A stretch of 64,000 nucleotides of DNA from Methanospirillaceae archaeon. GTDB taxonomy: Archaea; Halobacteriota; Methanomicrobia; Methanomicrobiales; Methanospirillaceae. Location of the stretch: the NCBI GenBank assembly GCA_016926505.1, contig JAFGOM010000052.1, positions 36,361 through 100,360 on the forward strand, written 5' to 3'. Both the position numbers and the translations under genes were made by a program. The notes beneath the pieces are model-generated. The model worked only from the letters and a program-made list of their open reading frames with translations, made no database searches and had not been told where the DNA came from. Positions 13,787 through 15,769 of this stretch are shown in pieces (position 1 is the first letter of the stretch; each line of letters starts with the position of its first letter).

Positions 13787-15769
13787 ATGGCAAAAGAACT
13801 TACCACGAACCATGCCTTCGCGATAGAAGTCCTTTTGTATTTCTCTGATCGGAAGATAACAAAAAAATTTCCTGACGATGTCCCTGATGAGATTCGTGAA
13901 TGTCTTCTGACGATGTATGAGGACCAGAAGAAGGTGGAAGACCCTGATTTTATCCTCGACGATGCAGGATTTACCGCAGAGATGGACAACCTCGTCTCAT
14001 CAGGCCAGTTTTCAGACTGGCTTGAGGAAGTATTCCGTCCCCTTGCAGAAGAGGTGATAGCAGAAGATGCAGAGAAGTCAGAGACTGATAAGACCGTCCC
14101 GGTTTCCTCTCCTATCATCCCGGTTACCAAACCCTTTGTTCCTGATAAAAAATCACAGGAAATACGCGATTTTTTTGCAATTCATCAGATTAATGGGGCT
14201 GAAATTCCGGAACTTCCCGCTAAAATCGAGAAAATTCTGAAAGATAAGGTGCGTGACATCAAAAAGGAAGAAAATCCTGCTTTCAGACTGACCCAGAAAC
14301 AGTTCCTGATGTACCTCACTGAAGTTACAGAAACAGTGGGATTCGAAGCATGGCTCTGTAAAACTTTCCCTCTCTCTGATAATGAATCCGAGTATGCACA
14401 TGATGAGGGAAGTTCGAAAATTCTCTATTCCGAATCACAGGTACCCCTTCCGGAATGGGTTAGTATTGATAGATTTAACCTGTTGGAGCGGTTTAACCGG
14501 GATAAATTCAGGTGGCTGATGCGGGATCATGCCCGGGTATTAGAAGAACTCTCTTCTGATCCGGCGGTCATATCCCGAATTCATGACCGTATCTTTTCAC
14601 TGATAGAAAAAGACCTGCCTCACCAGACTAATACCGATCTCGCAACCATCATCCTTAACCGTGAACTTGAAGGACTAACTGATCCCTCCCGGGTGATCAC
14701 CGATGAGCAGGTAGAACAGATACTAAACCAGATGATCAGGGAGTACGAGCACACCCGGATTGAACCCTGTGAAGCCGTCGGTATTATTGCAGCCCAGTCA
14801 ATAGGAGAACCCGGTACCCAGATGACGATGCGGACATTCCATTATGCCGGTGTGGCCGAGATCAACGTTACCTTAGGTCTGCCCCGTCTTATCGAGATCA
14901 TGGATGCAAGGAAAGAACCCTCAACGCCTACCATGACCATCTACTTACGAAGTGGATACGCGACAGATCGTGACAAAGCCCGTGAAGTATCGTGGTATAT
15001 CGAAGCAGCCAAGCTCCTGGAGTTTGGTGATATCACGACAGATATGGCAAACATGCAGATCGTTGTCACTTTAAACAAGCAGGTCTGTGATAAACGCAAG
15101 ATATCTGTCGCAGATATTCTTGAAGCAGCACCACGCAAAATCAAGGATCGTCGTCACTATCGTGATTTTGAGTGTGAGATCGATGAAACTATCCCGAAAA
15201 TGACCTTCATCCCCAAGGACCGGGAGAGTTACCAGAACCTGTTTCAGTTAAAGGAACATGTGCGAAATGTCATCGTGCAGGGAATTGATGATATCGAACG
15301 TGTTGTTGTGCGAAAAGAGAACGGCGAATATATCCTCTATACCGAAGGATCAAACCTAAAGGATGTCTTTGCCGTAAACGGGGTTGATACAACCCGCACG
15401 CGGACAAACAATATAAACGAGATATCACACGTTCTTGGGATAGAAGCTGCCCGTAATGCAATTATCTTTGAAGCTATCGCAACCCTGCAGGAGCAGGGTA
15501 TCATGGTTGATGTCAGGCATATCATGCTTGTGGCAGATATGATGTGCATGGAAGGGGAGGTCAAACAGATCGGCAGACATGGTATTGCAGGAGAGAAAGA
15601 GAGTGTCCTTTCACGGGCAGCATTTGAGGTCACGGTCAACCATCTGCTGGATGCAGCTGTTGCGCACGAATCAGATATTCTCTGTGGTGTGACCGAGAAT
15701 GTGATTGTCGGCCAGCCGATTCAGCTCGGGACTGGAGATGTTAAATTAGTTGTAAGACATACCTCATAG
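13787..15769 (+). CDS. rpoA2: DNA-directed RNA polymerase subunit A'' with a large duplicated N-terminal extension
   Basis: The C-terminal ~390 residues are a normal A'' subunit: EPCEAVGIIAAQSIGEPGTQ begins at residue 326, followed by MTMRTFHYAGVAEINVTLGLPRLIEI, the trigger-loop/cleft region, and ending with GTGDVKLVV. Archaeal A'' is usually about 380-400 residues with this motif near residue 50-70; here the protein has 660 residues, so roughly 260 are extra. The extension contains two copies of one module (residues about 13-86 and 124-196) aligned at a constant offset of 111 residues, joined by a Ser/Pro/Val-rich linker (about 98-120). ATG 13787 directly follows the A' stop and is preceded by AAGGAGG. 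The frame is continuous, so this is a true fusion in the sequence as given. The role of the extension is unknown. Confidence 0.95.
   Translation: MAKELTTNHAFAIEVLLYFSDRKITKKFPDDVPDEIRECLLTMYEDQKKVEDPDFILDDAGFTAEMDNLVSSGQFSDWLEEVFRPLAEEVIAEDAEKSETDKTVPVSSPIIPVTKPFVPDKKSQEIRDFFAIHQINGAEIPELPAKIEKILKDKVRDIKKEENPAFRLTQKQFLMYLTEVTETVGFEAWLCKTFPLSDNESEYAHDEGSSKILYSESQVPLPEWVSIDRFNLLERFNRDKFRWLMRDHARVLEELSSDPAVISRIHDRIFSLIEKDLPHQTNTDLATIILNRELEGLTDPSRVITDEQVEQILNQMIREYEHTRIEPCEAVGIIAAQSIGEPGTQMTMRTFHYAGVAEINVTLGLPRLIEIMDARKEPSTPTMTIYLRSGYATDRDKAREVSWYIEAAKLLEFGDITTDMANMQIVVTLNKQVCDKRKISVADILEAAPRKIKDRRHYRDFECEIDETIPKMTFIPKDRESYQNLFQLKEHVRNVIVQGIDDIERVVVRKENGEYILYTEGSNLKDVFAVNGVDTTRTRTNNINEISHVLGIEAARNAIIFEAIATLQEQGIMVDVRHIMLVADMMCMEGEVKQIGRHGIAGEKESVLSRAAFEVTVNHLLDAAVAHESDILCGVTENVIVGQPIQLGTGDVKLVVRHTS
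13823..14374 (+). repeat. Tandem protein module duplicated inside the rpoA'' N-terminal extension
   Basis: Residues 13-86 (13823-14044) and 124-196 (14156-14374) of A'' match at a fixed offset of 111. Identical pairs include E14/E125, F19/F130, I24/I135, P33/P144, I36/I147, L40/L151, P53/P164, F55/F166, L57/L168, F62/F173, F75/F186, W78/W189, L79/L190 and F83/F194. No gap is needed between P33 and F83. The DNA of the two copies is diverged, so the duplication is old. Confidence 0.85.

Follow-up and report, generated by a model that had tools for sequence, protein, structure and literature searches.

Archaeal RNA polymerase is usually seen as a stripped and fairly uniform version of RNA polymerase II (Pol II). 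Among the polymerases of eukaryotes, human Pol I carries a built-in foot domain, dock II, which comprises residues 1060-1155 of RPA1, lies near the incoming downstream DNA and may bind factors, according to the excerpts available of its description (PMC9438803). The same excerpts report that a minimal dock II construct gave no major DNA binding, while the full-length form gave residual binding at high excess, and they mention a possible contact of Top2a with dock II and Mediator on the Pol II foot. The capping enzyme has been reported on the foot of yeast Pol II, a part of Rpb1 (excerpts of PMC6981093 and PMC6107522), but a later cryo-EM study, noted in the latter, put it at the RNA exit tunnel instead. 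In addition, a mutation of the yeast foot disturbs assembly and the association of Rpb6 and Rpb4/7 (excerpt of PMC10778713). In archaea, the genome paper of Methanospirillum hungatei describes, in the part available, a typical RNA polymerase gene set (PMC4704411), and an N-terminal domain of archaeal Rpo1C is listed in a 2024 survey of insertions in RNA polymerases (PMC11515920); in the text available of that survey the clade treated below is not mentioned, and its main text is without any word starting with "Methano". No description of the A'' extension discussed here was found in the full-text literature as far as it was available, subscription literature being outside this scope, which agrees with the preliminary description of this DNA, whose author knew of none.

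The DNA analysed (the window) is a stretch of 64,000 nucleotides from a Methanospirillaceae archaeon. Its rpoA'' gene (Rpo1C) is the ORF at 13787-15769 on the plus strand, encoding 660 amino acids. The NCBI A'' model TIGR02389 matches this ORF with 488.2 bits against a cut-off of 420.65, the alignment starting only at residue 291; the core, EPCEAVGIIAAQSIGEPG, starts at residue 326, and the motif AAQSIGEPGTQMTMRTFHYAGVAE that opens the A'' core occupies residues 335-358. Directly 5' lies rpoA' (11126-13786), which aligns to solved A'/Rpo1N chains. The gene setting reads as an ordinary archaeal RNA polymerase cluster, with rpoH at 7456, B'' at 7719, B' at 9290, A' at 11126 and A'' at 13787, followed 3' by an L30e-like and then a nusA-like gene, all names besides A' and A'' being assigned by eye. 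The preliminary description had placed the core at residue 326 instead of about 50-70, and both the translation and other loci agree with this. The core begins about 50-70 residues in, as in ordinary A'', in 26 of 48 other Methanomicrobiales loci, the remaining 22 being those of family f6, which are described below. Outside the order but within the same phylum, a Met stands 52-70 residues before the core in 18 of 20 loci, the exceptions being L096 and L098; the loci as covered end about 50 residues ahead of the model match. The extension itself is real, and its length ahead of the canonical A'' N-terminal module comes to about 270 residues, not the roughly 260 given earlier.

The start of the gene deserves consideration, because the gene call for the contig in the protein collection, P0006 (416 aa), begins at the internal M245, and P0005 of this collection, judged from its protein entry, likewise is without the front part. 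Taken at face value, these entries would mean that A'' truly begins at M245 and that what precedes it is a spacer or the remnant of a decayed gene, a reading that we find hardly credible. P0002-P0004 also have Met at position 245, but the Methanospirillum rows among those listed have Leu or Ile, and the database entry for the A'' of M. hungatei is full length (653 aa). As had been proposed, the frame is continuous from the rpoA' stop, whose TGA abuts the ATG of rpoA'' in the same frame, and all 16 sequences compared, of which 12 are distinct, have AAGGAGG ahead of this ATG. Moreover, codons 1-244 give dN/dS values of 0.03-0.09 in 21 Methanospirillum locus pairs, that is, all pairs of the 16 sequences filtered to a core dS below 1.2, of which some repeat the same genomes and many have dS above 1; for the window against genome G146 the value is about 0.23, with saturated dS. 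The upstream codons are thus under purifying selection and the frame is kept in relatives. A frameshift joining two separate genes, raised earlier as a possible artefact, was rejected together with a wrong start and a spacer, given the Shine-Dalgarno sequence, the abutting ATG, the kept frame and the purifying selection. M245 is probably a wrong start, and the call P0006 thus hides the extension, which may be under-recorded, since at least one gene call truncates it.

Table 1. Features of rpoA'' and its surroundings in the window (residues are those of A'')
Feature	Residues	Position	Strand	Basis or remarks
Shine-Dalgarno AAGGAGG of rpoA'', within the end of rpoA'		13772..13778	+	read from sequence
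rpoA' stop TGA, adjoining the rpoA'' ATG, same frame		13784..13786	+	
Module 1	9-95	13811..14071	+	predicted helices 9-20, 34-51, 59-71, 75-95
Linker, Ser/Pro/Val and acidic	96-120	14072..14146	+	predicted disordered, pLDDT <50 at 92-118
Module 2	121-196	14147..14374	+	predicted helices 121-132, 145-162, 170-183, 186-193
Second linker	197-224	14375..14458	+	poorly conserved; predicted disordered at 199-217
Extra segment	225-274	14459..14608	+	predicted helical; canonical A'' is without it
Internal ATG, start of gene call P0006	M245	14519..14521	+	
Canonical A'' N-terminal (foot) module	275-325	14609..14761	+	hhalign
A'' core		14762..15766	+	presumably with trigger loop, jaw and cleft

The extension contains two copies of one unit, as the preliminary description had recognized. 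The best ungapped self-alignment has an offset of 111 and joins residues 14-83 with 125-194 at a BLOSUM62 score of 63, against 25 for the next offset and a maximum of 47 over 300 shuffles; the stretch from P33 to F83 is without gaps, as noted earlier, and contains 15 identities in 51 positions. Profile-profile comparison of the two repeats from clade sequences (hhalign) gave a probability of 96.6% and an E value of 6.3e-10 over 72 columns, so by sequence comparison the two units are homologous to each other. Their boundaries, approximately 9-95 and 121-196, set the unit at about 75-85 residues, which corrects the earlier figure of about 75 slightly upward. The pairs F19/F130, P33/P144, L40/L151 and W78/W189 are identical in 58 of 58 aligned sequences, and F75/F186 (98%), E51/E162 (95%), F83/F194 (93%) and I36/I147 (84%) are also kept in this set; of the matching positions listed at first, P33/P144, W78/W189 and F83/F194 stand, while F55/F166 falls below the level of 70% conservation used for this list of pairs. 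The set comprises 43 proteins plus 15 loci, four of which come from genomes that are already represented among the loci, and omits P0029 (823 aa), the short P0005, P0006 and P0031, the loci L057 and L058 and the partial L064, L070 and L071. Within one protein the repeats share on average 20.5% identity (17-27%, 58 sequences), whereas between the window and G146 identity is 43% in repeat 1, 50% in repeat 2 and 87% in the core, the linkers having 31% and 24%. This points to an old duplication whose copies drifted apart, while each is conserved between genomes. The Ser/Pro/Val linker noted earlier between the copies is indeed present and is also acidic. Behind the repeats, the canonical module pattern LP..T...L...[IV]T..QF..I....EY is present at approximately residues 275-325, and residues 268-330 align with canonical A'' modules with a probability of 99.1% and an E value of 8.6e-19 (hhalign). 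The omitted P0029, a Methanospirillum-like A'' with the extension, has in addition a C-terminal tail of about 160 residues composed of near-repeats rich in Ser, Pro, Val and Glu.

AlphaFold2 with 32 rows predicted two four-helix modules (residues 9-95 and 121-193) and a helical segment that runs into the canonical module (227-323), with a mean pLDDT of 73.6 and a pTM of 0.36, a value at which the model does not say how the modules are placed relative to each other. Block means of pLDDT were 77-88 for module 1, 65-85 for module 2 and below 50 for the linkers (92-118 and 199-217), and module 2 predicted alone with the rows of both modules reached a pLDDT of 78 and a pTM of 0.60. Neither model contains a β-strand, so a strand fold of the BEAN or HABAS type is not what is predicted. 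Residues 1-244 have a net charge of -19 (range -26 to -15 in the 58 sequences), which is distributed unevenly, module 1 (residues 10-92) having -13 and module 2 (residues 121-200) -1. This bears on the suggestion that downstream DNA or nascent RNA is contacted by the modules. The DNA part of this was raised in the preliminary description, and the position of dock II near the incoming downstream DNA speaks for it (excerpts of PMC9438803). Nevertheless, the acidity of the extension and of module 1, the near neutrality of module 2 and the little DNA binding reported for dock II itself in the same excerpts argue against such contacts, and we consider a nucleic-acid-binding role improbable. Of the earlier proposal that the pair binds a factor, DNA or another subunit, the protein side appears plausible and is the reading preferred here, and the DNA side is disfavoured.

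The extension was found in 15 of 108 genomes of the family, representing three of 17 genera. Within these genera all genomes carry it (12/12, 2/2 and 1/1), two of the twelve (G198 and G204) in part, apparently because contig ends cut it. The carriers, which are methane-making archaea, belong to Methanospirillum and two related genera and include M. hungatei JF-1, M. lacunae and M. stamsii. No match to the extension was obtained in the other 14 genera of the family or in the rest of the order. Likewise, a search with the module alone in 232 genomes of the order, some of them incomplete, detected the A'' of the same 15 genomes and a single extra match with an E value of 0.008 in an interrupted frame, and in a sample of the phylum two of 392 genomes carry the extension, besides one chance match. 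The possibility that this N-terminus is a general feature of euryarchaeal A'', which the preliminary description had itself named as a refutation, was rejected, the extension being confined to three genera in these searches. In a tree of the A'' core with 52 rows and long outgroup branches, the 17 carriers used form one clade with a support of 99/96 that was recovered in 100% of 200 bootstrap trees; it adjoins the canonical families (88/93, not starred), and the two groups of family f6 lie outside. Since the carriers form one clade, the simplest explanation is that the extension arose once. A separate observation concerns the single-contig genome G034 of family f5, which has two equal-score A'' matches (C1:280154-281269 and 295874-296989) about 15.7 kb apart, possibly a duplicated RNA polymerase cluster.

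Searches for known domains gave little. Residues 1-255 alone, which the preliminary description had recommended for a profile search, matched no Pfam or NCBIfam model up to an E value of 10, and nothing exceeded the cut-off when the extension was compared with Pfam, NCBIfam and PHROGs, though a remote kinship may have escaped these searches. The best weak profile match, obtained with one of five sequences, was to Tcp11 (E 0.013). The HMG family was absent from the Pfam matches to the extension (up to E 10, and up to E 1 in a second search), fold searches found no clear match to the modules among solved structures, and a sequence relation to the Rpb1 foot was not detected. Among viral contigs there was no relative that would point to a viral origin, and one PHROGs match had an E value of 0.073.

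The position of the extension can be compared with other polymerases. In phmmer alignments the end of A' (residue 875) corresponds to residue 1038, and residue 310 of A'' to residue 1190, of chain 7ob9_A, which we take to be human RPA1 (chain length 1720). The corresponding slot is 929-1005 in the Pol III chain 7a6h_A and starts after residue 875 in Rpb1 of 1i3q. Because the flanking A' and A'' alignments bracket dock II, the extension occupies the foot slot; the earlier view that additional domains, two in number, sit where A' and A'' join, at the foot, is thus supported by alignment to solved polymerases and by the structure prediction.

With regard to function, we propose with about even confidence that the extension is a docking arm for partner proteins, in which each module would have its own face or partner. 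The duplicated unit would give two predicted four-helix modules on flexible linkers, and the resulting arm would keep partner proteins close to the RNA polymerase foot. The arm would be a platform for protein interaction rather than a nucleic-acid binder, because the extension is acidic and the feet of Pol I and Pol II have been described as docking sites. Since the modules share only about 20% identity with each other and each is conserved across the clade, they may serve different partners or faces, and since the module was found nowhere else among the genomes searched, the partner is probably clade-specific. On the other side, no partner was found, a binding function is backed by no domain or fold match, the foot slot gives a position and not a function, and the analogy itself is debated in view of the alternative site of the capping enzyme (excerpt of PMC6107522). 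Purifying selection would also fit a structural or assembly role, in which the extension, rather than binding outside partners, would fasten A'' to A' and to the Rpo6/Rpo4/7 side while the enzyme is assembled. The site of the extension at the A'/A'' joint, its strong conservation and the yeast foot mutation cited above (PMC10778713, excerpt) are in keeping with such a role, but other Methanomicrobiales make A'' without the extension, and the predicted disordered linkers fit a tethered arm better than a clamp, so we hold an assembly or stability element to be unlikely, though less so than nucleic-acid binding.

The origin of the modules is a question apart, and any of these functions would be compatible with the answer. 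The modules might have descended from the A'' foot module as additional copies that later diverged, the foot having grown by repeated self-duplication, which is possible but in our opinion rather doubtful; descent from the A'' foot helices is weakly suggested by profile comparison. In these comparisons the alignments share a single plausible register (P..L..[LI]T..QF). With all 37 canonical rows, repeat 1 reached a probability of 28.9% (0 of 300 shuffles as high), repeat 2 5.5% (4 of 300) and the joint profile 3.3% (4 of 300); a 25-row set gave a joint probability of 20.1% and another set 17.3% (1 of 200 shuffles each), and the range for the two smaller row sets was 4.5-20%. These smaller sets omitted 12 and 13, respectively, of the 20 loci from outside the order, their motif being too strict, whereas the 37-row set takes all 20. 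In a 60-shuffle test, the joint profile scored above all shuffles against both the canonical foot module and the protein's own (0 of 60 as high). However, all these probabilities are far below 50%, column shuffling also destroys helical periodicity and so makes a lenient null, and the joint score dropped with the largest row set. Furthermore, single repeats against most foot profiles were equalled by 0-7 of 60 shuffles and the joint profile against the f6 copy by 9 of 60, and against the Methanomicrobiales module repeats 1 and 2 reached 1.2% and 2.3%. The results vary with the rows used.

For Methanocorpusculum, Methanorbis and their relatives (family f6), a duplication of the foot as such has good support, the A'' N-terminus being enlarged there by a doubled foot module with a probability of 93-95%. 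This enlargement resembles that of the Methanospirillum type, but it is smaller and separate: the f6 A'' is without the two modules and stands on separate branches of the core-A'' tree. Besides the duplicated foot module, the A'' of L032-L045 has an N-terminal tail of low complexity, acidic and variable in length, which occurs in one genus of the family; f6 genus g17 has the duplicated module without an acidic tail. Another peculiarity of f6 lies in the core, where Methanocorpusculum and Methanorbis (genus g24; L032, L038, P0049-P0116) have the motif EAVGI(N/C/T)AAHSIGEP, with His in place of the Gln of the other alignment rows among those listed. His is present in 67 of 68 proteins, and the motif was not found in the remaining one. 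This position is presumably that of Rpb1 Q1078, near the NTP in the active site, and the change could alter nucleotide selection.

Carried to its full length, the argument would describe a two-headed recruitment arm that evolved independently, came by convergence to resemble the dock II found in animal Pol I as well as the Pol II foot, grew by repeated copying of the archaeal foot module and recruits clade-specific factors to every transcribing polymerase; we regard this whole chain as speculative and unlikely to hold in all its parts. Whatever its function, the extension is a large, conserved and clade-confined addition to one half of the catalytic subunit, in a cultivated genus (M. hungatei), and it is located at the site where eukaryotic polymerases reportedly dock capping enzyme, Mediator or topoisomerase, in the excerpts cited at the outset. 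It thus offers a handle on whether archaea recruit factors via the polymerase foot, and it is usable as bait.

Among known systems the nearest counterpart is dock II, which in the excerpts cited is, like the extension, helical and restricted to a lineage, occupies the same slot, in which the A'-like part of the largest subunit gives way to the part like the A'' core, and which binds DNA little or not at all and is proposed to be a docking platform, the role to which the extension is likened here. Dock II, however, is one HMG-box-like domain located on Rpb5, whereas the extension is archaeal and consists of two mutually related, predicted four-helix modules, which are carried on linkers at a free N-terminus and for which kinship to HMG boxes was not detected. 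The Rpb1 foot of Pol II resembles the extension in being multihelical, in occupying the same slot and in its reported docking of proteins (capping enzyme or Mediator, in the excerpts available), but it is part of a continuous chain in eukaryotes, and the extension was found in three archaeal genera only. Finally, the insertions of the bacterial β and β' subunits (the SBHM repeats of Si3, BEAN and HABAS) are also lineage-specific and some of them are made of repeated domains, as stated in the excerpts of PMC11515920 and PMC10802570; BEAN and HABAS contain β-strands and Si3 lies within the trigger loop, while the extension is predicted to be all-helical and stands at the N-terminus of A''.
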